Shown here: in pieces, positions 15,692 to 36,026 of the stretch
Numbering within the stretch: position 1 is the first letter of the stretch
How the letters are laid out: every line of letters starts with the position of its first letter
Source of the DNA: Burkholderiaceae bacterium
GTDB lineage: Bacteria > Pseudomonadota > Gammaproteobacteria > Burkholderiales > Burkholderiaceae_A
Assembly: GCA_023261135.1 (NCBI GenBank)
Contig: JALRJP010000008.1
Span: forward strand, 1 to 36,026
DNA: 36,026 nt
Reading direction: 5' to 3'
Notes under the pieces: model-generated
What the model was told of the DNA's origin: nothing
What the model saw: the letters and a program-made list of their open reading frames with translations, nothing else
Databases searched by the model: none
Made by a program: the position numbers and the translations under genes

Positions 15692-18600
15692 TCAGCTTGT
15701 CATTGCTTGGTGCATCACAAGAACAGCATGTTTTGCCTTGCGGGTCGAGAGGTCTGCAATTTGATGCTGGCAGGAGAAGCCATCGGTAACAATAACAGCG
15801 TCTTTGGGGGCAGCGTTCACTGCCGGAACAAGACTGGCCTGCGCCATAGCCTTAGAAACTGTCTGATGTTTCACGTCGTAACCGAAGCTGCCCGCCATGC
15901 CGCAGCAACTGGACTCAATTAGTTTTACCTCGGCCCCAAGGCTTCGCAGTGCCTCAAGGGTGGGGCTCATTGCACCAAGTGCCTTCTGATGGCAATGCCC
16001 ATGAACGTAGACCGTCTGCCCGTGGAGTGCATGACCTTTTTGAATACCGCCTTTCGTGAGCTCCTTAACCCACCATTCCTCAAAGAGCATGGCCTGCTTC
16101 GAAAGTTGCTCGGCCTTATCCCCAAGCTGCATAACCAGCCACTCGTCACGGAGGCTCAGGATGCAGGAGGGCTCGAGCCCAACGATGGGTACACCCCGAG
16201 CAATTGCAGGCTCGAGTTCAGAAAGACACTGCAGTGCCATGGCACGGGCTTCATCAACCTGCCCAACGGAAAGTGCGGTACGGCCGCAACAAAGCGGAGC
16301 CTTTGCCGCCGCACCAGACAGCGCCACTTTATAGCCTAAGTGAGTTGCCAGCTCGTAGGCAGCAACCAAGGTGTCCGGAGCATAGGCATCATTAAAGGTG
16401 TCGGCCCATAAGACAAGGTCACAGTCTTGAAGCAGGCTACTTATAAGTTTTTTGCTCTTGGATCGAAAGCCTTGTGGCTGCCAAAGGGGTAAAGGCCGGC
16501 TGGAAGATACACCCAGCAGCTTTTCGGTCGCGAAGGCTAGGCCGGGAAACCAGTTTCGAGCGTTAAGTAAAAATGCCAGACCAGGAACCTTTCGAACAAG
16601 CCCCGAGAGCTTCGGAAGATCAGCAACTAGCTTTTGTTGCGGTGTGAAACCCTGCTCGCGGCCAGTCTGATAAAGCACTTCAATTTTCATCTTGGCCATG
16701 TCGACGCCTGTAGGACATTCGCGCTTACAGCCCTTACAGCCCACGCACAGGTCTAGTGCGTCGCGAACTGCCTTTGAAGTGATGCCACCCGGAATTTGCC
16801 CACTGCTTGCAAGGCGCAAGGTATTTGCGCGACCGCGCACCGAATGTTCTTCCGTACGAGTGACTCGATAGCTGGGGCACATGGTTCCAACATCGAACTT
16901 GCGGCAGTGTCCGTTGTTGTTACACATCTCAACGGCCTTTGCGAAGCCGAGGCTAGGGTCGTGACCTGTACCCGGAGCACTGATCCTAATTCCAAAGCTA
17001 CCCGGGTCGCCTTTCACCGAGGGGTCGTTACGTACGTTCCAAGATGACCAGTCGAATACCGGCGTAAGGGGCTGTGTTGCGTAGCTGGGGGGAAACCGAA
17101 AAAGCGTCTGGTCGTCCATGCGGGTTGTTCGCACGATTTTCCCGGGGTTGAGTCGGCCCGACGGATCAAAGGCGTCTTTAACATCTTCGAATGCCTTTGT
17201 AATTCTTGGCCCAAACTGCCACTCCACCCATTCGCTGCGCACGAGTCCGTCGCCATGCTCACCCGAAAACGCCCCTTTAAAACGTCGGACCCATTCCGAG
17301 GCCTCTTGTGCAATGGCACGCATCTTGGCGGCACCGTCGCGTCGCATATCCAGAATGGGTCGCACATGCAAGGTGCCCACCGAAGCGTGGGCATACCAAG
17401 TACCTTGGGTGCCATGCTTAGCAAAAATTTCAGTAAGTCTTGCCGTGTATTCAGCAAGATGCTCAAGAGGTACGGCACAGTCTTCAATAAAAGAAACTGG
17501 CTTACCATCGCCTCTAAGCGACATCATAATGTTAAGACCTGCTTTACGAACTTCCCATAAAGCGGACTGTCGAGCAGGCTCAAGGAATTTCACGGTGGCT
17601 TTCGGTAAACCATGATCGCTCATCAAAACATCCAGGGCATCAAGCTGCTGGCTTAATTGATTTTTATCGTCGCCCGCAAACTCTATGAGTAACAAGGCAT
17701 CGGTCTCCTGACCATTGACGTTAACAAGCCCATCGGCAATCACCGGGGCAAAAACGGGGTTTGCGCGGCAAAGCTCAATCATTGTTCGGTCAACGAGCTC
17801 CACAGCCACCGGTTTGAGCTTCACAATTTCTTTGGTGAGCTCCATTGCGGTTTGAAAGTTAGGGAAGTTCACCACCCCCAATAGCTTGTGAGCAGGAAGC
17901 CTAGATAGCTTGAGATGTATCGACTCGAAGGTGGCAAGTGTGCCCTCGGAACCCACCAAAAGATGCGCCAGATTCAGGCTGCCGTCTTCGGTGTACGGCC
18001 TCTCACTTTGGGGGAAGAAGATATCAAGGTTGTAGCCACCAACCCGTCGCAGGACTCTGGGCCATACGTTCTTGATGTCGTCCTTAACACCCTCGGAAAT
18101 TTGAAACAATCGTGAGACCAAGTCTGACAACCGGCGACTCGAAAGTTGCATCTCGCCCTTGTCGCCGAACCGTCCGAAGTAGGCGCGGGCGCCATCATCA
18201 AGAATGGCGTCAATTCCTAGAACGTTATGAACCATATTTCCGTAATGCAAAGACCGCGAGCCACACGAGTTATTTCCCGTCATTCCGCCAAGCGTGCATT
18301 GGGCCGCTGTTGAAACGTCTACCGGAAACCACAGCCCTTTGGGTTTAAGCTGAGCATTTAAATGGTCAAGCACCAGGCCGGGCTGAACCACCGCCGTCTG
18401 CTTATCAGTGTCAAGTCGAACAAGCGAGCGCAGGTGTTTGCTTGTATCAATGACAAGAGCCTCGCCAACGGTCTGGCCGCACTGTGACGTTCCCCCTCCG
18501 CGCGGCAGCACGGCAACGCCTTCGTCACGCGCAATATCAAGAGCAACTCGAAGATCAAAGTCGGACCGTGGAACAACGACACCCAATGGCATGATTTGGT

Positions 18601-18757
18601 AAATGGAAGCGTCCGTGCTGTAGCGTCCCCGAGAGGCTTCATCAAAGTAAATATCTCCCCGAACTTCACGTTTAAGACGCTTGGCCAAGCGGGACTGCGA
18701 CCATTGGGTCGACGCCTGAGGGTTGGTTAGTGTTTTTGGGAGTTGAGGTGCATTCAT
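15692..18757 (-). CDS. fused FAD-binding and Fe-S D-2-hydroxyacid dehydrogenase-type protein
   Basis: This 1021-residue protein fuses a GlcD/Dld-like flavin domain to a GlcF-like Fe-S domain. The vanillyl-alcohol-oxidase-type FAD domain includes PRGGGTSQCGQTVG (about 85-98) and TLGGMTGNNSCGS. The FAD-oxidase C-terminal domain extends to about residue 540 (GEHGDGLVRSEW). Two cysteine clusters (CNNNGHC...MCP and CVGCKGCKRECP, about 620-690) bind Fe-S centres. Two CCG motifs (CCGRTALSVG, ESSCCGMAGSFG) lie near the end. The size matches E. coli YdiJ, a D-2-hydroxyglutarate dehydrogenase, but D-lactate or glycolate are also possible substrates. Its start overlaps the GntR gene by 4 bp, so they form one unit divergent from the aminotransferase/TRAP operon. 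Confidence 0.9.
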   Translation of the reverse strand: MNAPQLPKTLTNPQASTQWSQSRLAKRLKREVRGDIYFDEASRGRYSTDASIYQIMPLGVVVPRSDFDLRVALDIARDEGVAVLPRGGGTSQCGQTVGEALVIDTSKHLRSLVRLDTDKQTAVVQPGLVLDHLNAQLKPKGLWFPVDVSTAAQCTLGGMTGNNSCGSRSLHYGNMVHNVLGIDAILDDGARAYFGRFGDKGEMQLSSRRLSDLVSRLFQISEGVKDDIKNVWPRVLRRVGGYNLDIFFPQSERPYTEDGSLNLAHLLVGSEGTLATFESIHLKLSRLPAHKLLGVVNFPNFQTAMELTKEIVKLKPVAVELVDRTMIELCRANPVFAPVIADGLVNVNGQETDALLLIEFAGDDKNQLSQQLDALDVLMSDHGLPKATVKFLEPARQSALWEVRKAGLNIMMSLRGDGKPVSFIEDCAVPLEHLAEYTARLTEIFAKHGTQGTWYAHASVGTLHVRPILDMRRDGAAKMRAIAQEASEWVRRFKGAFSGEHGDGLVRSEWVEWQFGPRITKAFEDVKDAFDPSGRLNPGKIVRTTRMDDQTLFRFPPSYATQPLTPVFDWSSWNVRNDPSVKGDPGSFGIRISAPGTGHDPSLGFAKAVEMCNNNGHCRKFDVGTMCPSYRVTRTEEHSVRGRANTLRLASSGQIPGGITSKAVRDALDLCVGCKGCKRECPTGVDMAKMKIEVLYQTGREQGFTPQQKLVADLPKLSGLVRKVPGLAFLLNARNWFPGLAFATEKLLGVSSSRPLPLWQPQGFRSKSKKLISSLLQDCDLVLWADTFNDAYAPDTLVAAYELATHLGYKVALSGAAAKAPLCCGRTALSVGQVDEARAMALQCLSELEPAIARGVPIVGLEPSCILSLRDEWLVMQLGDKAEQLSKQAMLFEEWWVKELTKGGIQKGHALHGQTVYVHGHCHQKALGAMSPTLEALRSLGAEVKLIESSCCGMAGSFGYDVKHQTVSKAMAQASLVPAVNAAPKDAVIVTDGFSCQHQIADLSTRKAKHAVLVMHQAMTS

Positions 18758-19452
18758 TTCGATCTTCTGTCCTTGCTAGGTTCGTTTTTAAGAAGGCCGA
18801 CAACAATGTCTGATTTGGCTTTAAGGTGAGCTACTAAAAGTTCGGCAAGCTTGTCCCCGTCTCGCTTGAGAAGCGCTTTAGCAATCTGAGCATGCTCACG
18901 CACGGCCTTGTCCCATTTTGATTGGTTCAGGTTAGAGCGGAAACGCAGCGCCTGCAACCGCGAATTGATGGTTAGGTAGGTTTCTTTCAAAACGGGGTTA
19001 TGTGCTGCCTCTGCAATAAGAGAATGTATCTCTGAATTCAGGCTGTAGTAGCGCGGAAGATTTTTCCGCTGGTGAGCCGACTCCATATCCGCCTGGAGTT
19101 TCTGAATTTTCTGAAGCTGCGCAGGCGTTGCTCTTTGAGCAGCTAATAAGCCCGAGAGTCCCTCAAGAGACGCAATCACCTCAAACGTATGAATTATCTC
19201 TTCAACTGACATAAGAGGAAGAACGGCCCCCTTGTTCGGTAGGATGTGAATAAGGTTTTCACCTGCCAGAACCTTAAATGCTTCTCGCATGGGGGTTCTT
19301 GAGACCCCCATTTGTTCGCAAAGCGCGCGTTCGCTTAACCGAGACCCGGGCGCTATTTTCCCCTCGACAATAGCCGCACGAAGTCGGTTAACAACGGTCT
19401 GATGAAGCCCCTCGTGTTTAATGGGAATGATTTTGGACAGGGGATCACGCAT
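18754..19452 (-). CDS. GntR family regulator (FadR/FCD subfamily)
   Basis: This 232-residue repressor-type protein has an N-terminal winged helix-turn-helix at about residues 15-80 (VVNRLRAAIVEGKIAPGSRLSERALCEQMGVSRTPMREAFKVLAGENLI). It is followed by an all-helical FCD effector domain with the metal/acid-ligand histidines seen in this subfamily (NSEIHSLIAEAAHNPVL, then VREHAQIAKALL). FCD regulators usually sense small organic acids. The gene overlaps the FAD/Fe-S enzyme gene by 4 bp and is divergent from the aminotransferase/TRAP genes. A GTATAC-C-GTATAC site in the shared promoter region is its likely operator. Confidence 0.92.
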   Translation of the reverse strand: MRDPLSKIIPIKHEGLHQTVVNRLRAAIVEGKIAPGSRLSERALCEQMGVSRTPMREAFKVLAGENLIHILPNKGAVLPLMSVEEIIHTFEVIASLEGLSGLLAAQRATPAQLQKIQKLQADMESAHQRKNLPRYYSLNSEIHSLIAEAAHNPVLKETYLTINSRLQALRFRSNLNQSKWDKAVREHAQIAKALLKRDGDKLAELLVAHLKAKSDIVVGLLKNEPSKDRRSK

Positions 19453-19573
19453 TAGTAAACATCATACAATTCCGAGGGTTACTGTGAACTGCTTCTGCTC
19501 CTTTTTCCCCATCGAATACGGGTTTGTCCCATTTGACGGCTCAAGGACCGATAAACTTATTAAGTGATAATTT

Positions 19574-19586
19574 GTATACCGTATAC
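19574..19586. promoter_or_regulatory. candidate GntR operator
   Basis: TTGTATACCGTATACC contains two GTATAC units separated by one base, a near-palindrome of the kind bound by FCD-type GntR regulators. It lies 36 bp before the aminotransferase start, in the 169-bp gap shared with the GntR gene, where it could control both directions. Confidence 0.6.
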
Positions 19587-19621
19587 CATCTGCAGTGGTT
19601 TCTTAACTAAAGGAATTCTTT

Positions 19622-20851
19622 ATGCAGCGCGATTTTCCTCGGGCCATCAACCCCAGAGTTGGCCTTAATCGAACGGGACAAGGTAGGCATTTCCTTCAAA
19701 TTCCCGGACCCAGTAACGTTCCCGACCGTGTTCTCAGGTCTATCGATTTCCCTACAATTGACCACCGTGGCCCAGAGTTTCAGCAGCTCGGGCTAAAGAT
19801 ACTGGAGGCCATTCGCCCCGTTTTCGGAACACGCAACCCAGTTGTGATCTATCCGTCCTCAGGTACTGGTGCCTGGGAGGCGGCTTTAGTGAATGTTCTG
19901 AATCCTGGTGACCATGTTCTCATGTACGAGGCGGGTCATTTCGCTGCTGTATGGAGGCGTTTGGCAGAGCGAATGGGTCTTAAGACCGAGGTCATGGAGG
20001 GCGATTGGAGACAGGGCGTCGATGCGAACCGAATTGAAGAGCGGCTTCGTCAAGATACCTCACATTCTATTAAAGCCCTATGTGTTGTTCACAACGAGAC
20101 CTCCACGGGGATTACCGCGGACATACCCTCTGTAAGAGCTTCGCTTGATAACGCCAAGCACCCTGCGCTACTTCTGGTTGACACTGTCTCCTCTTTGGGT
20201 TCTGTCGATTTCCAGCACGATGCCTGGGGTGTCGATGTAACTGTGGCTGGCTCACAAAAAGGCCTCATGCTGCCCCCTGGTATTGCTTTTAACGCGGTCA
20301 GTGACAAGGCCATTCAGGCAAGTCGTGTCGCTACCATGCCCAAGTCGTACTGGGCATGGGATGAGATTCTTGTCGCCAACGAGAAGGGGTTTTGGCCAAG
20401 CACCCCCTCTACGAATTTACTTTACGGGCTGGCCGAGGCCCTCGACATGCTCTACGAGGAAGGGCTTGATAATGTTTTTAAGCGCCACATTCGTCATGCC
20501 ATAGCAACCCGGGCCGCGGTCGAGGCCTGGGGGCTCGAGGTGCTCTGTCAGAACCCCAAGGGTTATAGCCCTGTAGTTACCGCCGTTGTTATGCCGAAAA
20601 AGTCAGACGGTAGTTTTTACGATGCCGATGCATTTCGGCGTACAGCGCTTGAGCGCTTCAACATGTCCTTAGGAACAGGCCTATCGAAGTTGGCGGGCTG
20701 GGTGTTCCGAATTGGGCACATAGGCGACTTAAATGACCTATCTTTGCTTGGCACGCTCGGTGGAGTTGAGATGGCGCTTCAAGTCAATGGAGTTTCCATC
20801 AAAGAAGGTGGTGTTCAGGCTGCTATGAAGATATTAGTGAACCCCAGCTAG
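19622..20851 (+). CDS. class V aminotransferase, serine/alanine-glyoxylate type
   Basis: This 409-residue PLP enzyme belongs to the serine-glyoxylate (SgaA) group of class V aminotransferases. The N-terminal FLQIPGPSNVPDRVLR is the substrate-phosphate/loop segment of the group. The PLP-contacting SSGTGAWEAA is at 79-88, the Asp of LLVDTVSSLGS at 187, and the Schiff-base Lys at 213 in AGSQKGLMLPPG. It would move an amino group from serine, alanine or a related amino acid to glyoxylate or another oxoacid. AAAGGA precedes the ATG. It is the first gene of a long plus-strand run and carries the candidate GntR operator. Related enzymes include aspartate-glyoxylate aminotransferases, so the true amino donor is open. 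Confidence 0.92.
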   Translation: MQRDFPRAINPRVGLNRTGQGRHFLQIPGPSNVPDRVLRSIDFPTIDHRGPEFQQLGLKILEAIRPVFGTRNPVVIYPSSGTGAWEAALVNVLNPGDHVLMYEAGHFAAVWRRLAERMGLKTEVMEGDWRQGVDANRIEERLRQDTSHSIKALCVVHNETSTGITADIPSVRASLDNAKHPALLLVDTVSSLGSVDFQHDAWGVDVTVAGSQKGLMLPPGIAFNAVSDKAIQASRVATMPKSYWAWDEILVANEKGFWPSTPSTNLLYGLAEALDMLYEEGLDNVFKRHIRHAIATRAAVEAWGLEVLCQNPKGYSPVVTAVVMPKKSDGSFYDADAFRRTALERFNMSLGTGLSKLAGWVFRIGHIGDLNDLSLLGTLGGVEMALQVNGVSIKEGGVQAAMKILVNPS

Positions 20852-20913
20852 TGGCTTGGTGTATGGTTTTAGAGCGTTATCAACTAGGTTTTAATCATTA
20901 CGAGGAGATATCT

Positions 20914-21912
20914 ATGCGATCAAATCACGCTTCACGTCGAATCATTCTTGCGGGCGCTGCAGCCGCTGTAAGTCTTGGCCTTACGGGCCTCGGCACAGTC
21001 CATGCCCAAGCCGAAATCAAGTTCGGTCACGTTGGTAACCCGGGCTCGCTCTTCGAGGCCTCCGCCAACGAGTTCGCTCGTATTGCGAATGCAAAGCTTG
21101 GTAACAAAGCGAAGGTGGTTGTCTACGGTTCAAGCCAGCTTGGCGGCGACAAAGAAATGGTGCAAAAACTAAAGCTCGGTACGCTCGATTTTGCGCTGCC
21201 GTCTTCGGTGATGACCTCCGAGGTCGACCAATTCGGTATTTTCGACATGCCCTACTTGGTTGCTAACCGTGACCACATGAGGAGAATCGAGAAGGAGGTT
21301 GTTCGGCCCACGCTTTTCCCATTGGCGGAGCAAAAAGGCCTCAAGATTCTTAGCGTTTGGGAGAACGGTTATCGCCACATTACCAATAACAAGCGTCCCA
21401 TCGTTAAGCCGGAAGATCTTAAAGGGGTTAAGCTTCGCACCCCAAAAGGTAAGTGGCGCGTAAAGATGTTCCAGGCCTACGGGGCAAACCCCACGCCCAT
21501 GTCGTTCTCCGAGGTTTTCACTGCCTTGCAAACTGGCGTAATGGACGGTCAAGAGAATCCCTTAACGCAAATTTACTCGGGTAAGTTCCAAGAGGTTCAA
21601 AAGTATCTTTCGATGTCTGGCCACGTCTACACACCGGCATTCCCTACAGCCAGCGTAAAGCGTTTTAATGGCTACCCCTCAGATGTTCAAAAGGCTCTTA
21701 CTGAGGCTGCTATCGAGACGCAAGACTTTGTTTATAAAACAGCCGCAAGAATGGAAAAGGAGCTTCTTGACAAGATAAAAGCAGCAGGCACGCAAGTGAA
21801 TGAAGTGGATAGCAAAGCCTTTGTTACCGCAAGCAAGGCTATCTACGAAGAGTTCGGCCAAGACGTCAAGGGTGCGAACGATCTTATTAGCAAAGCCCAA
21901 GCGTTGCGCTAG
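20914..21912 (+). CDS. TRAP transporter substrate-binding protein, DctP family
   Basis: This 332-residue periplasmic protein carries an exported N-terminus with a twin-arginine-like SRRIILAGAAAAV and a cleavage site after VHA. The DctP fold is shown by IKFGHVGNPGSLFEASANEFA, the Gly-rich SQLGGDKEMVQKLKLGTLDF, and the carboxylate-binding Arg in LKGVKLRTP. FSEVFTALQTGVMDGQENPL is also diagnostic. GAGGAG precedes the ATG at 20914. It delivers an organic anion, usually a carboxylate, to the DctQ-DctM genes that follow. The ligand is not evident from sequence; neighbouring enzymes suggest a hydroxy- or amino-acid-related acid. Confidence 0.95.
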   Translation: MRSNHASRRIILAGAAAAVSLGLTGLGTVHAQAEIKFGHVGNPGSLFEASANEFARIANAKLGNKAKVVVYGSSQLGGDKEMVQKLKLGTLDFALPSSVMTSEVDQFGIFDMPYLVANRDHMRRIEKEVVRPTLFPLAEQKGLKILSVWENGYRHITNNKRPIVKPEDLKGVKLRTPKGKWRVKMFQAYGANPTPMSFSEVFTALQTGVMDGQENPLTQIYSGKFQEVQKYLSMSGHVYTPAFPTASVKRFNGYPSDVQKALTEAAIETQDFVYKTAARMEKELLDKIKAAGTQVNEVDSKAFVTASKAIYEEFGQDVKGANDLISKAQALR

Positions 21913-27562: not shown

Positions 27563-28015
27563 ATGATTTCACTGAAAGTTAACGGAAAGACGCACAAGGT
27601 TAAGGTGGAACCCGATACGCCCTTGCTCTGGGTCTTGCGTGAGCAGCTGGGCCTTACAGGCACCAAGTACGGATGCGGCATTGCCCAGTGTGGGTCTTGC
27701 ACCGTACTTGTCGATGGTGACGCCGTCAGGTCGTGCGCCTTACTGGTATCCGCGGCGCAAGGGAATACCATTCGCACCGTTGAAGACTTAGCAAGATCGG
27801 GCCAGCTCACAAAGGTTCAAAAGGCGTGGGTGGAGCATCAGGCCCCTCAGTGCGGTTACTGTCAGTCCGGAATGGTTATGGCGGCAACCGCTTTGCTCGA
27901 AAAGAATCCAAACCCAACCGATGCCGATATCGACGCTGCCATGACCAATATCTGCCGCTGTGGAACCTACCAAGAAGTCCGTCGGGCCATTCGCTCCGTC
28001 AGCCAGGCTTCCTAA
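27563..28015 (+). CDS. iorA: 2Fe-2S subunit of an isoquinoline-1-oxidoreductase-type molybdenum hydroxylase
   Basis: This 150-residue protein carries two [2Fe-2S] clusters. The plant-ferredoxin-type cluster uses Cys38, 43, 46 and 58 ([11 protein letters not shown]...RSC). The second uses Cys97, 100, 131 and 133 (QCGYC...NICRCGTY). GGAGG stands just before the ATG. It passes electrons from the molybdenum site of IorB to an outside acceptor. It has no export signal, so it would leave the cell folded together with Tat-targeted IorB. The gene is 75 bp after nadB and 11 bp before iorB. No FAD subunit gene is present, which is typical of the IorAB group that reduces cytochromes or quinones. Confidence 0.92.
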
Positions 28016-28026
28016 AGGAGACTGCT

Positions 28027-30288
28027 ATGAAAAACCTGCTTTCTTCGCTTTCTTCTGAAACCCAAGACTCTCGTCGGCAGTTTGTCGTGGGTGCGGTCTC
28101 CGTCAGTTCGGGCCTGGCCATTGGTCTTGAGCTTCCATGGGGCCTCTCACCATTGGCTGCAGCGCCGAGTAAAGCGGTGATCGAGCCAGTTCTGCCCACG
28201 TCGGTCAAGTCAGACCAATCCGAGATCGGTGCCTGGGTCGTGATCGAGCCTGATGATCGGGTTCTGGTACGCGTGGTTCGTTCTGAAATGGGGCAGGGCA
28301 CCATTACTGGTTTGGCTCAGCTTGTAGCTGAAGAGCTTGAGTGCGACTGGTCCAAGGTTCACGTGGAATACCCAAGTCCTGGCGAGAGTCTTCGGCGTAA
28401 AGATGTCTGGGGCTCTTTCTCCACCGGTGGAAGCCGGGGCATTCGAAACTCCGAAGACTATGTTCGGCGTGGCGGTGCAGTGGCCAGAAAAATGCTTATT
28501 CAGGCGGCCGCTAACCAGTGGGGCGTGCCAACCACAGAATGCTTTGCGCGAAAGAGCCTTGTCACGCATCGCCCCTCGGGTCGGTCGGCAAGCTTCGGTT
28601 CTCTTGCGCCTCAGGCCGCGAAGCTACCCGTACCGGACGCAAAAGCCATTGCACTGAAAGACCCCAAGGACTGGGCCATTATCGGCAAGCCTATGAACAG
28701 GCTTGATAGCTTTGAGGACAAAGTCACCGGTGCGCAAATTTATGCCATCGACCTTAAGCTTCCTGGCATGCTTACGGCCACCATTCGACAGTGTCCGGTT
28801 TTCGGTGGAACGGTAAAGTCGTTCGACGCCGCAGCGGTTAGTGGTATGCCCGGTGTAAAAAAAGTGGTTCAAGTCGATAACCACTCGGTCGCTGTTGTTG
28901 CCGACACGTATTGGCATGCCAAGAAAGCCGTCGACAAACTTCCTATTATTTGGAATGAAGGGCCCAACGCTAAGGTTCAGCAATCCGACATTGTTAAAAC
29001 CCTCGAAGAGGGTTTGGCGAGCAACCAATCCTTTGTTGGGCTTAAGAAGGGAGATCCACATAATGCAATGAAGACCTCGAAGAAAATCATCGAGGCAAGC
29101 TATTTCTACCCATTTCTAAATCATGCGCCTCTCGAGCCCATGAATGCCACAGCGGTCTGGGCATCTTCGTCATGCAAGGCGTGGGTGCCGACGCAAGACG
29201 GTCAAGCCTCTCTAGCGGCAGTCATTGAGGCTTCAGGTTTACCTGCTGCCCAGTGCGATGTTGTCAAAGTGAATTTAGGGGGAGGTTTTGGTCGGCGTGG
29301 TGCCTTCCAAGACTTCACGACCCAGGCGGTACTTATTGCCAAACAAATGCCTGGCACGCCCATTAAACTCATTTGGTCTCGTGAAGAAGACATGACGCAG
29401 GGACGTTACCACCCCATCATGATGGCGAAGATGAAGGCCAGCTTTAACGAGAAGAAAGAGCTCACTGGTATTCAAATGCGCTTGTCCGGCCAGTCCATTC
29501 TTGCGGCAGTTAGACCAGCCATTGTCGAGAAGAATAAGGGGATGGACCCTCTAGTTTTCCAAGGTGTGGCTAAAGATGGTGAGCATGCCATTAGTTACGA
29601 CTTTCCTAACGTGGTCATCGACCATGCCATGCGTAACACCCATGTCCCACCGGGCTTCTGGCGTGGTGTGAATGTGAACCAAAACGCCATCTTTATGGAA
29701 TGCTTCGTTGACGAGATGGCGGAGATTACCGGCATGGACCCACTGGCGTTTCGGCGAAAGTATTCAGCTAATCGTCCCCGTACCCTGGCCGTTTTAAATG
29801 CGGTCGCAGATCGTCTGAATTGGGCATTTAAGCCTAAGGCCGGTATCTTTAGGGGGATTGCTCAGCAGTATTCGTTTGGCAGTTATGTTGCTGCGGGCTG
29901 CGAACTCTCCGTTGTCGACGGCAACAAAATCAAAATTCACAGAATTGTTGCAGCTACCGATCCCGGGTATGCGGTGAATCCTGCCCAAATTGAACGACAG
30001 ATTTCAGGGTCCTTTGTATACGGATTGTCTGCGCTCTTCGAACAAGAGTGCACTGTGAAAGACGGTCGTGTCGCGCAAACCAATTTTGACTCCTTCGGGT
30101 CCATACGACTTGCCCAAATGCCGCCTGTGGAAACCATCATTCTTCAGGGAGGCGGGTCAAGCTGGGGTGGTGTTGGCGAGCCAACCATTGCCGTTGCAGC
30201 CCCTGCCGTTCTCAATGCCTTTTATAGGGCTACAGGGCGTCGGTTACGCACGGTTCCGTTAAAGAATCTTGGTGTCACTCTTGTTTAG
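28027..30288 (+). CDS. iorB: molybdopterin-binding subunit of an isoquinoline-1-oxidoreductase-type hydroxylase
   Basis: This 753-residue catalytic subunit belongs to the xanthine dehydrogenase superfamily. It begins with a Tat signal (SRRQFVVGAVSVSSG, residues 15-29), indicating folded export to the periplasm. Cofactor-binding segments include EMGQGTITGLAQLVAEELE, VNLGGGFGRRGAFQDF and PPGFWRGVNVNQNAIFMECFVDEMA. The active-site Glu of GGVGEPTIAVAAPAV lies at about residue 718. The ATG at 28027 has AAAGGAG seven bases upstream; the frame extends further 5' but overlaps iorA. Family members hydroxylate N-heterocycles or oxidise aldehydes. Here the next genes, 12 bp on, encode a SoxYZ-like sulfur carrier, so the substrate may be carrier-bound or sulfur-containing. 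Confidence 0.92.
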   Translation: MKNLLSSLSSETQDSRRQFVVGAVSVSSGLAIGLELPWGLSPLAAAPSKAVIEPVLPTSVKSDQSEIGAWVVIEPDDRVLVRVVRSEMGQGTITGLAQLVAEELECDWSKVHVEYPSPGESLRRKDVWGSFSTGGSRGIRNSEDYVRRGGAVARKMLIQAAANQWGVPTTECFARKSLVTHRPSGRSASFGSLAPQAAKLPVPDAKAIALKDPKDWAIIGKPMNRLDSFEDKVTGAQIYAIDLKLPGMLTATIRQCPVFGGTVKSFDAAAVSGMPGVKKVVQVDNHSVAVVADTYWHAKKAVDKLPIIWNEGPNAKVQQSDIVKTLEEGLASNQSFVGLKKGDPHNAMKTSKKIIEASYFYPFLNHAPLEPMNATAVWASSSCKAWVPTQDGQASLAAVIEASGLPAAQCDVVKVNLGGGFGRRGAFQDFTTQAVLIAKQMPGTPIKLIWSREEDMTQGRYHPIMMAKMKASFNEKKELTGIQMRLSGQSILAAVRPAIVEKNKGMDPLVFQGVAKDGEHAISYDFPNVVIDHAMRNTHVPPGFWRGVNVNQNAIFMECFVDEMAEITGMDPLAFRRKYSANRPRTLAVLNAVADRLNWAFKPKAGIFRGIAQQYSFGSYVAAGCELSVVDGNKIKIHRIVAATDPGYAVNPAQIERQISGSFVYGLSALFEQECTVKDGRVAQTNFDSFGSIRLAQMPPVETIILQGGGSSWGGVGEPTIAVAAPAVLNAFYRATGRRLRTVPLKNLGVTLV

Positions 30289-30300
30289 GTTTTTGGCGAA

Positions 30301-30771
30301 GTGAAGGTGCGACGAAGAGCCTTTGTTAAAAACGCTTTAAGGGTCGGTGGAGGCCTGAGCCTTTGGACGTGCTCAGGCCTAACAGTCTTTGCGTCCCAAT
30401 CTGCTGGGAAAAGGGACATTCCGAAGGCAGTCCTCGACTGGGCGGGTGGCCGCCCGCTGCAGTTTGAGCGAGTCCAGCTCATTCTGCCGCCCTTGGTTGA
30501 AAATGGCTTCTTGGTTAGTACATCGGTTCGTGTCGACAGCCCCATGACATCTACCGATTATGTTGAAGAACTACGCCTATTCTCGGAAGTGAATCCTTCC
30601 CCGTTCATCGCTAACTTTCGCCTTGGCCCGCGGCTACCCGAGGCTCGCATTGAAACCAGAATTCGGCTTGCCGATACACAGGCTGTCTGGGCGGTGGCTC
30701 GGACTAATAAGGGCGAATTCTTGTGTGCCTATCAGCAGGTTATTGTTACCTTAGCGGCCTGCGCAGGTTAA
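30301..30771 (+). CDS. soxY: SoxY-like sulfur carrier subunit with a variant C-terminal arm
   Basis: This 156-residue protein starts with a twin-arginine-type signal (RRRAFVKNALRVGGGLSLW, residues 4-22). The mature part aligns with SoxY, the periplasmic carrier that holds sulfur intermediates on a C-terminal cysteine: LPPLVENGFLVSTSVRVDSPMTSTDYV, an immunoglobulin-like core, RIRLADTQAVWAVAR, and the last strand VIVTL. True SoxY ends GGCGG; this protein ends AACAG, keeping the terminal-arm cysteine (residue 154) but replacing glycines with alanines. SoxY-related families with other arms are known. It starts at GTG 12 bp after iorB and ends 6 bp before soxZ. No soxA, soxX, soxB or soxCD is in the window. 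Confidence 0.88.
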   Translation: MKVRRRAFVKNALRVGGGLSLWTCSGLTVFASQSAGKRDIPKAVLDWAGGRPLQFERVQLILPPLVENGFLVSTSVRVDSPMTSTDYVEELRLFSEVNPSPFIANFRLGPRLPEARIETRIRLADTQAVWAVARTNKGEFLCAYQQVIVTLAACAG

Positions 30772-30777
30772 CTGGAA

Positions 30778-31119
30778 GTGAAGAGTCCCGACTCTCTGCG
30801 CGCAGTCTTGCAGTTTCAGTCGCCTGTGGCCAAAGGCTCCGTTATTGAAGTGCATGCAGTTATACGTCACCCGATGGAGTCGGGGTTTCGACATACCGAG
30901 CGCGGCGAAGTTATTCCTGCCAACCTTATTCGTCAGTTTGTCTGTCGGTTCAATGGTGAAGAAGTCTTTCGAGCAGACCTTCATCCAGGCATGGGGGCGG
31001 ACCCAAGTATTCGATTTCCATTTCGTGCGGAGCTGCCAGGAGAGATGGAATGCGAGTGGATGGGTGATCAAGGCCTTAGCAGAACCCTCAGAAGGGCTTT
31101 GTCGATTTCACGGCCTTAA
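30778..31119 (+). CDS. soxZ: SoxZ-like sulfur carrier subunit
   Basis: This 113-residue protein aligns over its length with SoxZ, the cysteine-poor partner of SoxY. It has KGSVIEVHAVIRHPMESGFRHTERGEVIPANLIRQF, then CRFNGEEVFRADLHPGMGADPSIRFPF, and the closing MECEWMGDQGLSRT. It lacks a signal peptide, as SoxZ does, and would be exported bound to the Tat-targeted SoxY. It starts at a GTG 6 bp after soxY, so a heterodimer is expected. Its last 12 bp overlap the convergent DUF1992 gene. It ends the eleven-gene plus-strand run. Confidence 0.9.
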   Translation: MKSPDSLRAVLQFQSPVAKGSVIEVHAVIRHPMESGFRHTERGEVIPANLIRQFVCRFNGEEVFRADLHPGMGADPSIRFPFRAELPGEMECEWMGDQGLSRTLRRALSISRP

Positions 31120-31400: not shown

Positions 31401-32333
31401 TTAAGCCGCCCGTAATGAAGGTTTAAGTAGGCTGGCGATATGCGAAGAGACGCTGCGACCCAGAGCATCAAGACAATAGCCTCCTTCAAGGCTGCTTACG
31501 ATGCGCCCCGTACAGAAGGCGTTTGCCACTTGAACAAGCGCATCAGTAATCCGCGCGTAATCGTCTTCGGTCCAGGCAAGTCCCGCCAGCGGATCTTCGC
31601 GGTGGGCGTCAAAGCCCGCGGAGATCAGTAAGAGCTGGGGTTCAAAACCTTCAAGTTGGGGTATCCAATGATGTTCAAGCATGGAGGCAATTTCTGCCGA
31701 GCCTGCGCCGGCCCGCAAGGGAACATTCACCATATTTTCGCCCTTTGGCTTTGAGCCAGAGCCGGGGTAGATGTCTTGTTGAAAAGACGAGACCATCAAT
31801 ACTCCCTCTTCATTCGCAAGAATATCTTCAGTGCCATTACCGTGATGCACATCGAAGTCAATGACGGCAACGCGTGTAAGTTTGTACTTCTTTCGGGCGT
31901 ATAAGGCAGCAAGTGCAATGTGGTTAACGAAACAAAAGCCCATAGAGGCGGCGCGTTCCGCATGGTGACCAGGAGGGCGAACCGCGCAAAAGGCATGACG
32001 TGTTTTGTCCGTCATAACGGCATCGACCGCCTGAAGTACGGCGCCGCTTGCTAAGAGCATGGCCTCGTAGGTCTGAGCATTCATGCAGGTATCGGGATCT
32101 ATGAATTCGTAGGTGCCCAGGGGGACAGGTAATGCAAGACGCTGTAACAGATCTTGGGTGTGTGCCAGTTCAAGCACTTTCATATCTACAGGCTTGGCAA
32201 CTTGATGGTCAAGCTGAGGCCAGAGCGCCTTCGCCTTGAGCGCTTCTTCGATTGCCACAAGTCGCTCAGGGCACTCCGGATGCCCCGAGCCCATGGAGTG
32301 GTCTTGAAAGCGAGGATGGGAGAAAAAGTACAT
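31401..32333 (-). CDS. histone-deacetylase-superfamily amidohydrolase (first copy)
   Basis: This 310-residue zinc hydrolase belongs to the bacterial HDAC/AcuC/acetylpolyamine amidohydrolase superfamily, which removes acyl groups from amines or lysines. The opening GHPECPERL is typical. The catalytic His pair is in RPPGHHAE (123-124). Zinc ligands are Asp161 and His163 in IDFDVHHGNGT and Asp242 in SAGFDAHREDPLAGL. A C-terminal LEGGY closes the site. The ATG at 32333 is preferred over a TTG six codons upstream. It is co-transcribed with the DUF1992 gene and divergent from the succinate-semialdehyde dehydrogenase gene. The target could be acetylated polyamines, protein lysines or another amide. 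Confidence 0.92.
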   Translation of the reverse strand: MYFFSHPRFQDHSMGSGHPECPERLVAIEEALKAKALWPQLDHQVAKPVDMKVLELAHTQDLLQRLALPVPLGTYEFIDPDTCMNAQTYEAMLLASGAVLQAVDAVMTDKTRHAFCAVRPPGHHAERAASMGFCFVNHIALAALYARKKYKLTRVAVIDFDVHHGNGTEDILANEEGVLMVSSFQQDIYPGSGSKPKGENMVNVPLRAGAGSAEIASMLEHHWIPQLEGFEPQLLLISAGFDAHREDPLAGLAWTEDDYARITDALVQVANAFCTGRIVSSLEGGYCLDALGRSVSSHIASLLKPSLRAA

Positions 32334-32382
32334 GACTTTCAAAGGATACAATGACTCAATTAAAACTTAGGAGACCGTCGTT

Positions 32383-33861
32383 GTGGATATGAAAGCAAAC
32401 CCCTTAAGCCTTTTAAAGGATCCAAGTCTGCTGAAGTCTCAAGCCTTTCTTGATGGCCAGTGGGTAGACAGTCAGCAAAAGTTTAGTGTGAGCGACCCCG
32501 CCACTGGCATGGAGTTGGGTAAGGTTGCCAACTGCACTGCCCAGCAGGCTGAGCAGGCCATTGAAGTGGCGAGTGCGGCCTGGTCCTCCTGGCGTGAAAC
32601 CCAGGTCAAAGCACGAGCGAATTTGCTGCGTAAATGGTATGAGTTGCTCATGGCCAATATCGACGATCTTGCCCGCCTCATGACGGCCGAGAACGGTAAG
32701 CCCTTGGCAGAGTCACGAGGTGAGGTTGCCTACGGTGCAAGCTTTGTTGAGTGGTTTGCCGAAGAGGCAAAGCGTATTAACGGAGAAACGCTTCCCACCT
32801 TCGATAATAACCGGCGTCTGCTTGTTCTTCGCCAAGCCATTGGCGTTTGCGCCGCTATTACGCCTTGGAATTTTCCTTTGGCCATGATCACTCGTAAGGT
32901 GGCGCCCGCCTTGGCTGCAGGCTGCCCCGTTGTCATCAAGCCCGCCGAACAAACACCTCTTACTGCTTTGGCGGTTGCCGAACTGGCTCAGCGTGCGGGT
33001 CTTCCCGCCGGTGTGCTGCAAGTCATAACCGCTGACGCCGAGAACAGCATTGCCATTGGTAAGGTTTTCTGTAGCTCAGAGACGGTTCGTCACTTAAGCT
33101 TTACTGGGTCGACTGAGGTTGGTCGCATTCTTATGGCGCAGTCTGCCCCCACCATTAAAAAGCTCTCGCTCGAACTCGGTGGAAACGCGCCATTTATCGT
33201 GTTTGATGATGCCGACCTTGACAGTGCCGTCGAGGGGGCCTGGGCAAGCAAATATCGTAATGCCGGCCAGACCTGTGTCTGCGCCAACCGCTTCTATGTG
33301 CAGGAAGGTATTTACGATGCCTTCGTTGAGAAATTCGCAGCCAAGGTTGCGACGGCTAAGGTCGGCAATGGTTTTGAGGACGGTGTTAATCAGGGGCCGT
33401 TAATTGAAGATGCTGCTGTAGATAAAGTAATGCGCCATCTTGATGATGCTCAGCAAAAAGGTGGGCGCGTCGTTACTGGGGGCAGTCGATTGTCCGGTCG
33501 ATTCTTTCAGCCCACCGTGCTTGCGAATGCAACAACGAATATGCTTTGTGCAACCGAAGAAACCTTTGGCCCTTTTGCCCCAATTTTTAAGTTCAAAACC
33601 GAGCAAGAGGTCGTGGAACTTGCTAATGCAACTGTTTATGGCCTTGCGAGTTATTTTTATGCCCGAGATGTCGGCCGTATCTTTCGCGTTAGCGAAGCGC
33701 TTGAATACGGCATGGTCGGTGTGAATGTCGGTATTCTCGCCACCGAACATGTGCCTTTTGGCGGGGTTAAGCAAAGTGGGCTAGGTCGAGAGGGATCAAG
33801 CCATGGCATTGATGACTATCTTGAGATGAAGTTTGTCGCCATTGGCGATGTTCGTCATTAA
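32383..33861 (+). CDS. gabD: NAD(P)+-dependent succinate-semialdehyde dehydrogenase
   Basis: This 492-residue aldehyde dehydrogenase has the GabD pattern throughout. The N-terminal part has VSDPATGMELGKVANC, the NAD(P) fold has PWNFPLAMITRKVAPALAAGCPVVIKP, and the general base is Glu264 in LELGGNAPF. The catalytic Cys is residue 298 in NAGQTCVCANR, with a second Cys at 300 that in E. coli-type GabD can form a redox-sensing disulfide. The C-terminal VPFGGVKQSGLGREGSSHGIDDYLE is typical. GGAG lies nine bases before the GTG start. It would oxidise succinate semialdehyde, for example from GABA or polyamine breakdown, to succinate. A quinone oxidoreductase gene follows after 5 bp. Confidence 0.93.
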   Translation: MDMKANPLSLLKDPSLLKSQAFLDGQWVDSQQKFSVSDPATGMELGKVANCTAQQAEQAIEVASAAWSSWRETQVKARANLLRKWYELLMANIDDLARLMTAENGKPLAESRGEVAYGASFVEWFAEEAKRINGETLPTFDNNRRLLVLRQAIGVCAAITPWNFPLAMITRKVAPALAAGCPVVIKPAEQTPLTALAVAELAQRAGLPAGVLQVITADAENSIAIGKVFCSSETVRHLSFTGSTEVGRILMAQSAPTIKKLSLELGGNAPFIVFDDADLDSAVEGAWASKYRNAGQTCVCANRFYVQEGIYDAFVEKFAAKVATAKVGNGFEDGVNQGPLIEDAAVDKVMRHLDDAQQKGGRVVTGGSRLSGRFFQPTVLANATTNMLCATEETFGPFAPIFKFKTEQEVVELANATVYGLASYFYARDVGRIFRVSEALEYGMVGVNVGILATEHVPFGGVKQSGLGREGSSHGIDDYLEMKFVAIGDVRH

Positions 33862-33866
33862 CTGAA

Positions 33867-34868
33867 ATGCGTCAGGTTGCAATTGCCCGCGCTGGCGGGC
33901 CCGATGTCTTGGTGATAGAGCAGGCCCAGGTTTCAGAGCCCGCTGCCAACGAGGTTTTAATTCGTGTGCTTGCTGCGGGTGTGAATCGCCCGGATGTTCT
34001 GCAGCGCATGGGGCTCTACGACCCGCCGGCGGGGGCTTCGTTAATTCCAGGGCTTGAGGTGGCGGGCGAGATCGTTCGTTGTGGCCAAGGCTGTCAACGT
34101 TATAAGCCGGGGGACGTCGTCTGTGCACTGGTCTCTGGCGGAGGCTACGCCGAGTATTGCCTTGCTCCAGAGTCGCAGGCACTGCCCATTCCCAAGGGGT
34201 TTACGTTTACCCAGGCTGCGGGCATTCCAGAAACGTACTTCACCGTCTGGTCCAATGTCTTCGATCGTGGGGGGCTTCAGGCGGGGCAGAGCATTCTTAT
34301 TCATGGGGGCTCAAGCGGCATTGGCACCACGGCCATTCAGCTGGCGCATCAGTTTGGTGCCAAGGTTTTCACAACAGCAGGCAGCACCGAAAAGTGCCAG
34401 GCCTGTATTGATCTTGGCGCTGACAAAGCCATTAATTACAAGACTGAGGATTTCCTTAGCATCGTGAAAGATGAGACGCAGGGCCGCGGGGTGAACCTTG
34501 TGCTCGATATGGTCGGTGGAAAAAATATTCAAAAGAATATTGGTAGCCTCGCGCCCGACGGTCGGCTGGTTCACATTGCGTTTTTAGAGTCCTCGGTGGC
34601 CGAGATCGACCTCATGCCGGTCATGCTTAAGCGGCTTACCATTACGGGGTCAACACTTCGGCCACGCACCCTTGCGCAAAAAGCAGAAATTGCTACTAAT
34701 CTTCAGACGCATGTTTGGCCCCTTTTTGAGGCAAATAAAATTAAGGTGCTTGTTGACAGCTGCTTTAGCCTTGACCAAGTTGCGCAGGCGCATAGGCTAA
34801 TGGAATCAAGCCAGCACATCGGAAAGATCATTTTAAAGGTCTCAGACCAGGCCGATACGATTTGCTAA
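33867..34868 (+). CDS. NAD(P)H quinone oxidoreductase, zinc-less MDR family (PIG3 type)
   Basis: This 333-residue medium-chain reductase lacks the zinc-site cysteines of alcohol dehydrogenases. An N-terminal GroES-like domain has VLIRVLAAGVNRPDVLQRMGLYDPP, a hallmark of the PIG3/quinone reductase group. The NADPH-binding fold follows, with ILIHGGSSGIGTTAIQLAHQFGAKVF. It starts 5 bp after gabD and is likely translated from the same message. It reduces quinones or enones with NADPH. It ends 11 bp before the convergent second deacetylase gene. Confidence 0.92.
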   Translation: MRQVAIARAGGPDVLVIEQAQVSEPAANEVLIRVLAAGVNRPDVLQRMGLYDPPAGASLIPGLEVAGEIVRCGQGCQRYKPGDVVCALVSGGGYAEYCLAPESQALPIPKGFTFTQAAGIPETYFTVWSNVFDRGGLQAGQSILIHGGSSGIGTTAIQLAHQFGAKVFTTAGSTEKCQACIDLGADKAINYKTEDFLSIVKDETQGRGVNLVLDMVGGKNIQKNIGSLAPDGRLVHIAFLESSVAEIDLMPVMLKRLTITGSTLRPRTLAQKAEIATNLQTHVWPLFEANKIKVLVDSCFSLDQVAQAHRLMESSQHIGKIILKVSDQADTIC

Positions 34869-34879
34869 GGTCTGGCGCT

Positions 34880-35812
34880 TTACACCGCTGGCCCCATACA
34901 GAAGCGGTCGATGGCGCATTCAAATGTTTGTCGGTGTGCTTGAACGGCAAGTTCAATAGGGTCCGCATAGCCACCTGCCATTGCTACAGCAATTGGAATG
35001 CCTCGTGTTTTTGCAAAAGTAAAGACAGCCTCATCCCGTGCGCGCAGTCCATTGTGGCTAAGGCTTAAACGTCCGAGTCTGTCACTTTCAAGCGGGTCAG
35101 CGCCGGCCAGGTAAATAATAAGGTCGTGCGCTACGGCTTGGTCGAGGGTCTGAAGCAGACCGTGAAGCGCCTCAAGATACGCCTCGTCACCCGTACCGTC
35201 TGCAAGTGCAATATCAATGTCAGAGCGTGTCTTTCTAAAAGGAAAGTTCGACGCCCCATGCATGGAGCAGGTTAAGGTTTCATTCCGTCCGGCCAGAATG
35301 GCAGCGGTTCCATCCCCTTGGTGAACATCAAGATCAATAATGGTGACTTGTCCAAGACCCCAGTGTGTCTGCATCCAACAACAGGCCACAGCAGCATCGT
35401 TAAAGCAACAGTAGCCCGACCCAAAGTTGCGATGCGCATGGTGGGTGCCGCCTGCCAAGTTAAAAGCAACTCTCGGTTCCGAGCAATAGGCAGCCTCACA
35501 GGCTGCAATGGTTGCCCCTACTGATCTCCGTGACCGTTCCACCATAGCGGTTGACCATGGAAAGCCAATTCGTTTCATGGCCTTCTCATCCAAGGATCCC
35601 GTACAAAGCTGCTCGACGTACACAGAGTCATGACACAAAAGCAGTTGCTCGTCGGTTGCCGCAGGCGGGCTTTCAAGGGAGATGGCAGAAAGCTGCTGCA
35701 AGGACTCCTTGAGCATTCGGTACTTCAACATTGGGAAGCGATGACCCACCGGCAGGGGCAGCTCAAACTGATCGGTGCTGAAAGCTTTAATTACAAAATC
35801 TGGCTGAGCCAT
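34880..35812 (-). CDS. histone-deacetylase-superfamily amidohydrolase (second copy)
   Basis: This 310-residue zinc hydrolase is of a different subfamily from the copy at 31401. It starts MAQPDFVIKAFSTDQFELPLPVGHRFPMLKY, as in class-IV-like bacterial HDAC homologues. The catalytic region is GGTHHAHRNFGSGYCCFNDAA (His124-His125). Zinc ligands are Asp162 and His164 in IDLDVHQGDGT and the Asp of YLAGADPLESDRLG. AMAGGY closes the site. The ATG at 35812 is preferred: the frame is open 16 codons further, but the upstream part overlaps the thioredoxin-like gene. The overlap with that gene (22 bp) suggests coupled translation. Its substrate is unknown. Confidence 0.92.
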   Translation of the reverse strand: MAQPDFVIKAFSTDQFELPLPVGHRFPMLKYRMLKESLQQLSAISLESPPAATDEQLLLCHDSVYVEQLCTGSLDEKAMKRIGFPWSTAMVERSRRSVGATIAACEAAYCSEPRVAFNLAGGTHHAHRNFGSGYCCFNDAAVACCWMQTHWGLGQVTIIDLDVHQGDGTAAILAGRNETLTCSMHGASNFPFRKTRSDIDIALADGTGDEAYLEALHGLLQTLDQAVAHDLIIYLAGADPLESDRLGRLSLSHNGLRARDEAVFTFAKTRGIPIAVAMAGGYADPIELAVQAHRQTFECAIDRFCMGPAV

Positions 35813-36026
35813 ACCCGTATACGCATGCCAAGCTCGGTGGTGTAGCCCACGGTGACCCAATGAAGCTCATTATGCTCAGTAATGACGATGAAGCTTGGTA
35901 CAGTCCGTAACCCGAGTGCTGAGAGCCATTGCCCAGAAGGGTCGACAAGTGTACGCAGTGAAAGGCTGCGGTCCTGTAAAACCCGGGTAACCTTCTGGGA
36001 GCCGCCAGATTGAATTGCCACAGTAA
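35791..36026 (-). CDS. thioredoxin-like protein, C-terminal part (cut by the window edge)
   Basis: The frame enters from the right edge; about 77 C-terminal residues are visible. RTLVDPSGQWLSALGLRTVPSFIVI followed by WVTVGYTTELGMRIRVW is the C-terminal half of a TlpA/redoxin-type thioredoxin fold, including the cis-proline of TVPSF. The CxxC active site, if present, lies beyond the window. It overlaps the start of the second deacetylase gene by 22 bp on the same strand, so the two are probably co-transcribed. Confidence 0.8.
   Translation of the reverse strand, partial: TVAIQSGGSQKVTRVLQDRSLSLRTLVDPSGQWLSALGLRTVPSFIVITEHNELHWVTVGYTTELGMRIRVWLSQIL

Follow-up and report, generated by a model that had tools for sequence, protein, structure and literature searches.

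A molybdenum hydroxylase conserved beside an AAC-type SoxYZ-like carrier, possibly as part of a branch of the Sox system

The 36,026-nucleotide stretch of a Burkholderiaceae genome considered here (hereafter the window; GenBank assembly GCA_023261135.1, contig JALRJP010000008.1, our contig C285) carries four genes, iorA, iorB, soxY and soxZ, encoding a molybdenum hydroxylase (IorAB) and a relative of SoxYZ, the known thiosulfate carrier. The module is real and conserved: the coupling of iorAB to soxYZ, proposed earlier for this DNA from its letters alone (the sequence-only reading), recurs in 142 of the 221 loci that we scanned with profiles built here. We tentatively read the four genes, at slightly less than an even chance, as a conserved periplasmic offshoot of the Sox system, here in its short form and without a SoxB or SoxCD of its own, in which IorAB would oxidise a carrier-bound substrate loaded by SoxAX. 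The 142 loci, called cassettes below, have an IorB of the window type (more than 300 bits) and a SoxY in the same stretch. The relevant features of the window are as follows.

27563..28015, + strand: iorA, two-[2Fe-2S] subunit of the molybdenum hydroxylase, with Fer2 and Fer2_2 domains
28027..30288, + strand: iorB, molybdopterin-binding subunit with a Tat-like N-terminus and MoCoBD_1 and MoCoBD_2 domains
30178..30180, + strand: codon of IorB E718 in the motif GVGEP (Glu in 140 of the 142 cassette loci, with one S and one gap)
30301..30771, + strand: soxY-like carrier gene with a GTG start, a Tat-like N-terminus and the arm TLAACAG (TIGR04487, 133.6 bits; PF13501, 91.5 bits)
30760..30762, + strand: codon of the arm cysteine of the soxY-like product (Cys154), the sulfur-carrying site in classical SoxY (Cys in 142 of 142 cassettes)
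30778..31119, + strand: gene of the soxZ-like carrier partner with a GTG start (PF08770, 85.2 bits; TIGR04490, 72.6 bits, just missing the cut-off of 76)

Coordinates and profiles alike agree with the arrangement first read from the letters, four genes on the + strand with gaps of 11, 12 and 6 bp. The assignment of the enzyme to the xanthine oxidase family also stands: IorAB has the two [2Fe-2S] domains (Fer2 and Fer2_2), the MoCoBD domains and the catalytic Glu of a molybdenum hydroxylase, E718 lying at what we take to be the catalytic position of that family. Seven of the eight cluster cysteines of IorA are invariant in the 136 sequences available from cassettes, and the eighth, C38, is kept in 135. 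The carrier was rightly placed outside classical Sox, since its arm is AAC-type and its best NCBIfam family is TIGR04487, ‘SoxY-related AACIE arm protein’, at 133.6 bits against a cut-off of 172; TIGR04488, SoxY_true_GGCGG, follows at 83.9 bits. The starts of IorB (...SRRQFVVGA...) and SoxY (...RRRAFVKNA...) both resemble the Tat motif. By eye, no obvious export signal is present in IorA or SoxZ, so that co-export would be needed. Purifying selection acts on each of the four genes in the genus of the window: dN/dS is 0.041, 0.028, 0.089 and 0.067 for iorA, iorB, soxY and soxZ, respectively, values that are approximate because dS is saturated. None of the 13 Sox and Ior profiles built here matched any further gene of the window.

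The cassettes comprise 67 loci, including the window, from samples of relatives, order and phylum, 74 of the 80 loci of a named scan (the best 80 of 544 confirmed stretches) and one further locus, L245. The remaining 79 comprise controls (canonical sox, solo IorAB and second soxXYZA loci), soxY loci that lack IorAB, and loci truncated where a contig stops. The closest sample held 61 genomes (the host and 60 relatives), and the order and phylum samples, which overlap, held 349 each. A strong AACIE-type SoxY was found in 11 of the 61, and every one of the ten loci from other relatives carries iorA, iorB, soxY and soxZ, with iorAB divergent in L045. A congener (L044) has the same locus and the same upstream genes at 78-92% protein identity, and iorB and soxY share a strand in 139 of the 142 cassettes. 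Among the best 80 of the 544 stretches, 30 have Bradyrhizobium titles and the other carriers include Betaproteobacteria, Hyphomicrobiales, Telmatospirillum and contigs labelled Rokuibacteriota. Bradyrhizobium sp. BTAi1 has a cassette (L204); titles of metagenome-assembled genomes such as Bordetella, Klebsiella, Chitinophaga and Rhodoplanes are database labels, not species assignments. The four-gene order is thus not peculiar to this genome, recurring in many others, and the iorAB-soxYZ pairing is conserved rather than a local accident. A chance neighbourhood or an assembly artefact might have been suspected of a source genome in 296 contigs. This is in effect refuted by the congener, which has the same locus and neighbours, and by recurrence of the pairing across families of the order, in Alphaproteobacteria, in the contigs labelled Rokuibacteriota and on a plasmid.

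The linkage was assessed from both ends in the 349 order genomes, the best three IorB candidates per genome being scored. For 57 of 76 TIGR04487 matches (E <= 1e-18) an IorB of at least 580 bits lies within 5 kb. Twelve of the 19 misses score no more than 101.4 bits; the other seven are a contig end (G261), a locus whose IorB fell outside the top three (L096, on C51 of G165), a carrier with a GGCGG arm (L094 in G173) and four soxXYZA loci whose stretch contains no IorAB (G310, G153, G190 and G281). Conversely, 57 of 81 IorB matches of at least 580 bits have a TIGR04487 match within 5 kb. The 24 further matches comprise 16 fetched without SoxY, three at contig edges (G261, G004 and G289), four unfetched and one (G147, locus L245) adjoining divergent soxY, soxZ and soxA; a locus ending 159 bases past iorB (L241) is not counted among the 16. 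Of the lower-scoring IorB matches, none of the 28 tabulated was linked to SoxY. Three cassettes were fetched from G165 (L055, L064 and L096), the last with a very divergent, long-branched IorB by an AACIE SoxY.

The carriers also differ from classical SoxY in a consistent way. All 142 cassettes retain the arm cysteine and none has the GGCGG end, the commonest arms being AACLE (39), AACTE (35) and SACLD (12). As loci were fetched with the SoxY_para profile the absence of GGCGG is partly selected, a bias from which the reverse IorB search is free. In contrast to the AACAG of the window and the AACxE of most other cassettes, the canonical arm is GGCGG: it ends the soxB-linked SoxY in all 25 loci read (a 26th, L233, was unread) and in the host's own canonical copy. 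In the SoxY tree the 26 SoxB-linked rows fall on one side of a branch with support of 100/97, and the IorAB-linked rows are broken only by six soxXYZA-only rows and the SoxB group (five changes). A separate SoxYZ group (L132, L136, L137, L138, L139, L141, L142 and L145) has the arms GGCAG, GGCAN, GGCVG or GGCSG and no soxB, soxA or IorB match in the stretch; an FCSD-like match is present in L132, L137, L138, L139 and L141.

In its full form the cassette reads iorA-iorB-(FCSD flavoprotein)-soxX-soxY-soxZ-soxA. Both soxX and soxA are found in 103 of the 142, neither in 34 and one of them in five (at least two of the five cut by contig ends), and SoxAX therefore belongs to the picture. An FCSD-type gene, counted by position, lies between iorB and soxY in 65, and the soxB, soxC and soxD profiles matched in none of the 142 cassette stretches. 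The complete order appears in the NCBI annotation of a Methylobacterium sp. NMS14P plasmid: (2Fe-2S) protein, molybdopterin protein, cytochrome c, FAD oxidoreductase, SoxX, AACIE SoxY, SoxZ and SoxA. There the FAD oxidoreductase is by Pfam the FCSD flavoprotein, SoxX, SoxA and the flavoprotein exceed curated cut-offs, and SoxY scores 212.4 bits on TIGR04487. In the window iorB and soxY are 12 bp apart with no FCSD gene between them, the remainder of the host genome not having been searched for one. The IorB tree groups the window with G019 and the f31 genomes G055, G099 and G244 (SH-aLRT 100). Of these, G244 contributes an unlinked copy; the linked members, the window excepted, carry soxX and soxA, so that the short form of the window probably arose by loss.

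The host genome (1.85 Mb in 296 contigs, 92.5% completeness) provides a potential source of what was lost. The sequence-only reading saw no soxA, soxX, soxB, soxC or soxD, which holds within the window, where the profiles are unmatched, and fails for the genome: contig C242 bears a canonical cluster of soxC (truncated where the contig stops), soxD, soxY, soxZ, soxA, soxX and soxB. This cluster encodes a SoxYZ of its own with a GGCGG arm and has no need of that of the window, and we therefore set aside the idea, raised earlier, that a Sox cluster elsewhere in the genome uses the window's SoxYZ. Any SoxAX acting on the window's carrier would now presumably come from the canonical cluster.

Presence of the other Sox components was examined genome-wide in 66 genomes with an AACIE-type locus. 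These are a selection rather than every carrier, related to each other and so not independent as counts, and they include seven of the 12 phylum-sample genomes outside the order with at least 160 bits as well as two order genomes in which no IorAB was seen by an AACIE soxY (G310 and, where contigs end, G261). SoxA reaches the cut-off in 64 of the 66, and in both misses (G346 and G230) the cassette abuts a contig end. Across the order as a whole SoxA does so in 168 of 349 genomes, or in 113 of 292 once the 57 locus-bearing genomes, 55 of them with SoxA, are subtracted. SoxA is likewise present in all 24 genomes whose cassette lacks local soxX and soxA, two of which (G047 and G174) have a contig end close to soxZ and could have a local soxA. 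Its active-site cysteine column is Cys in 105 of 105 cassette SoxA sequences. SoxB, by contrast, is found at cut-off in 48 of the 66 genomes and absent from 18, 15 of these having a listed completeness of 90% or more and two (G664 and G169) being single-contig assemblies. The near universality of SoxA and frequent absence of SoxB indicate that the module accompanies SoxAX, the loader, rather than SoxB, the hydrolase, and suggest a Sox branch that needs the former and neither SoxB nor SoxCD, with IorAB as the processing enzyme.

Since enzymes of the xanthine oxidase family require an Mo=S ligand, SoxAX-loaded SoxYZ could instead serve the cofactor, supplying sulfane sulfur to renew the terminal sulfido ligand on molybdenum where cytoplasmic XdhC-type proteins do not reach. 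The RRx[FV] motif near the start of IorB in 134 of the 142 cassettes is in keeping with this, as is the presence of SoxA in the 24 genomes above, a short form of this kind needing SoxAX alone in trans. We nevertheless regard cofactor service as improbable: close unlinked relatives of IorAB exist, some in genomes with no TIGR04487 match (G335, G266, G163, G243 and G345), the two XdhC-type proteins of the host are available for ordinary sulfuration, and FCSD would be left unexplained.

Other combinations of these genes were also seen. L075, L083 and L078 (from G153, G281 and G190, respectively) are AACIE-type soxXYZA loci whose stretch lacks IorAB, and the same three genomes carry the iorAB-soxYZ short form elsewhere; soxC- and soxD-like genes lie a few kb from soxXYZA in L075 and L083. 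A further set (L226-L232, L234 and L235) has soxX, soxZ and soxA without soxB in the stretch, its SoxY and SoxZ matching canonical-type profiles. In this set soxY is absent only from L226, where a frame of 293 residues may be a SoxY-SoxZ fusion, and five of its genomes (G041, G088, G169, G063 and G098) have no soxB at cut-off genome-wide.

As to the kind of enzyme, the isoquinoline of the Ior designation is a name only and no guide to the substrate. At the sensitivity used, the one solved sequence related to IorB over nearly its whole length is the aldehyde dehydrogenase large subunit 8gy3_C (residues 49-747, 1.9e-70), at 241 bits against 77 for the next best; we know of no SoxYZ partner for it. 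Some relatives of IorAB with no soxYZ in the stretch adjoin genes for c-type cytochromes, a multihaem one in Methylosinus and others on two Sinorhizobium plasmids. Taken together with the aldehyde dehydrogenase match, this suggests as the most likely chemistry for IorAB that of a hydroxylase or aldehyde oxidase working in the periplasm and passing electrons to c-type cytochromes. The Methylosinus case (L256, on plasmid pOB3b1 of M. trichosporium OB3b) is flanked to one side by the multihaem cytochrome and an arylsulfatase, and to the other by genes for a nucleotidyltransferase and XdhC/CoxI. These cytochromes could also mean that SoxX and SoxA are simply electron acceptors of IorAB, with SoxYZ a passenger. 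Retention of soxYZ without local soxX and soxA in 34 of 142 cassettes, the invariant arm cysteine (142 of 142) and purifying selection on SoxY and SoxZ in the genus of the window all tell against electron coupling alone, which we consider very improbable.

Several clues to the substrate were pursued and set aside. Flanking genes were compared between the 59 cassette loci of the order sample and 19 solo IorAB loci, with counts of 4 and 2 for CaiB, 1 and 2 for enoyl-CoA hydratase, 2 and 0 for DctM, 1 and 0 for XdhC and 9 and 6 for TctC-type genes; none of the five was found in 26 soxB or 10 second soxXYZA loci. A gene for SBP56, presumably methanethiol-oxidase-like, lies some 4-7 kb from soxY in six loci (five with Bradyrhizobium titles and L107), which we treated as one lineage and not as evidence. 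YeeE/YedE-type sulfur-transport genes beside a solo IorAB (L253) are a single case, and ergothioneine, thiodipropionate and methanethiol, also considered as substrates, were dropped for lack of evidence.

The cassette, then, keeps loader and carrier, drops SoxB and SoxCD, changes the arm and adds IorAB, and the simplest reading is that IorAB is a new processing enzyme. In the first step SoxAX, whose genes adjoin the cassette in most relatives and which in this host presumably comes from the canonical cluster, would link a thiol-type sulfur compound through a disulfide to the arm cysteine of the AAC-type SoxYZ. Exported IorAB would then oxidise the tethered substrate at carbon, taking the place that SoxCD has in thiosulfate oxidation, with electrons leaving through the two [2Fe-2S] clusters to c-type cytochromes. 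A persulfide or sulfide left on the arm would finally be cleared either by the FCSD/SoxF flavoprotein, where present, or by the canonical Sox cluster. It would follow that IorAB touches SoxYZ directly, and the load is probably something other than thiosulfate, and organic. The complete scheme, in which SoxAX tethers an organic thiol, the molybdenum hydroxylase oxidises its carbon skeleton on the carrier and the persulfide is left for FCSD or classical Sox, we consider possible, if on balance doubtful.

Its main rival, also doubtful though quite conceivable, has the same genes in one pathway with no tethering: IorAB would oxidise the carbon part, for example an aldehyde, and SoxAXYZ with FCSD would treat the sulfide or thiol released. 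The aldehyde dehydrogenase match of IorB, the FCSD-type gene that 65 of the 142 cassettes have between iorB and soxY, and the occurrence of the same IorAB type without soxYZ are all as this rival would have them. It does not explain why all 142 IorAB-linked SoxY have an arm other than GGCGG, nor why iorAB and soxYZ stay together in the 34 cassettes without local soxX and soxA.

A number of observations weigh against oxidation on the carrier. The 16 fetched IorB relatives that score as highly have no adjoining SoxY, and the IorB tree intersperses linked and unlinked rows (11 changes against a shuffled mean of 15.6, with 3 of 500 shuffles as low), so that this type of IorAB can exist without a local carrier. 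Conversely, AACIE soxXYZA loci L067, L075, L078, L083 and L101 have no IorAB nearby. The correlation of IorB and SoxY distances (r = 0.567 over 66 loci, with 0 of 1000 permutations as high), in itself a point in favour, may partly reflect shared species history. The form in the window is without local soxX, soxA and FCSD, and its SoxY is the sole end branch flagged as long in the SoxY tree. To our knowledge the closest solved enzyme, the aldehyde dehydrogenase, does not require a carrier. The flanks give no substrate, the CoA-transferase, enoyl-CoA hydratase and transporter genes being not clearly enriched relative to solo IorAB. The remaining difficulty comes from Starkeya novella, in which, according to Kappler et al. 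2013 (PMC3797975), the second cluster was expressed at a very low level: its SoxAX and SoxYZ were undetected in the proteome, and a single SoxF-like subunit was seen in small amounts except on glucose. The authors suggest there that the cluster has no functional significance in this organism, allowing for other growth conditions.

That paper had described the combination as soxX2Y2Z2A2F2 together with a molybdenum enzyme of the xanthine oxidase family (Snov_1975-1982). The sequence-only reading had not known it as a described system; sound on the coupling, the carrier and the enzyme family, it missed this precedent along with the host's Sox genes and a role for SoxAX, and its proposals of a hydroxylase acting on a carrier-bound intermediate and of sulfur taken from a heterocycle are conjectural. 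Among the matches listed in a literature search, with subscription papers mostly outside its reach, the combination is described nowhere beyond PMC3797975. As described there, the S. novella cluster is like the full form, with a molybdenum enzyme of the xanthine oxidase family, a SoxF-like flavocytochrome c and SoxX, SoxY, SoxZ and SoxA, and without SoxB and SoxCD. The window shares with it molybdenum-enzyme genes of that family adjoining soxY and soxZ, but is a short form with no soxX, soxA or soxF in the operon, the two being likened by the description of their gene sets alone. What is new here is the breadth of occurrence, the arm rule, the presence of SoxA with frequent absence of SoxB, and the short form.

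With canonical Sox the cassette shares the SoxYZ fold by profile, the carrier cysteine, SoxAX as likely loader and a molybdenum enzyme as partner; it differs in having no SoxB or SoxCD and a molybdenum enzyme of another family. TIGR04487, the best family of the window's SoxY, also names the carrier on the Methylobacterium plasmid, and its model line gives no function. The quinoprotein relay (TIGR04557; the ped cluster of PMC12997753) likewise sets a SoxYZ-like carrier by a periplasmic carbon-oxidising enzyme, but the enzyme there is a pyrroloquinoline quinone (PQQ) alcohol dehydrogenase, accompanied by a metallohydrolase, and the carrier is fused whereas the window has two separate genes; the window proteins score 52.7 and 40.4 bits on TIGR04557, below its cut-off of 140. 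For TsdA, an enzyme of the SoxA family, PMC4423706 supports oxidative joining of a sulfur compound to cysteine. Of the two soxY genes of Bradyrhizobium diazoefficiens, only soxY1 is essential for thiosulfate oxidation according to PMC5748708; soxY2 may be a cassette gene. PMC4782131 mentions FCSD adjoining SoxYZ in SAR324 and, separately, an isoquinoline 1-oxidoreductase.

Were oxidation on the carrier confirmed, it would represent carrier-bound carbon chemistry carried out in the periplasm by a molybdenum hydroxylase. Some genes annotated ‘sox’, in lineages including many Bradyrhizobium, would not serve thiosulfate oxidation, and estimates of sulfur oxidation from metagenomes that count soxYZ or soxAX would be affected. 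For the duplicated sox cluster, to which no role was assigned in 2013, there is now a concrete, testable partner.

The surroundings of the four genes contain two further groups of genes. Upstream, at 15692-21912 of the window, is a glycolate/glyoxylate-like locus with a glycolate-oxidase-like FAD/Fe-S gene, a regulator, TRAP transporter genes and a BhcA-like aspartate-glyoxylate aminotransferase (430.8 bits against a cut-off of 650). Downstream, two genes of the histone deacetylase family (PF00850), at 31401-32351 and 34880-35860 and both on the - strand, enclose an aldehyde dehydrogenase gene (32383-33861) and a zinc-type quinone-oxidoreductase-like gene (33867-34868). Both deacetylase genes and the aldehyde dehydrogenase recur in L044, the locus of the congener.

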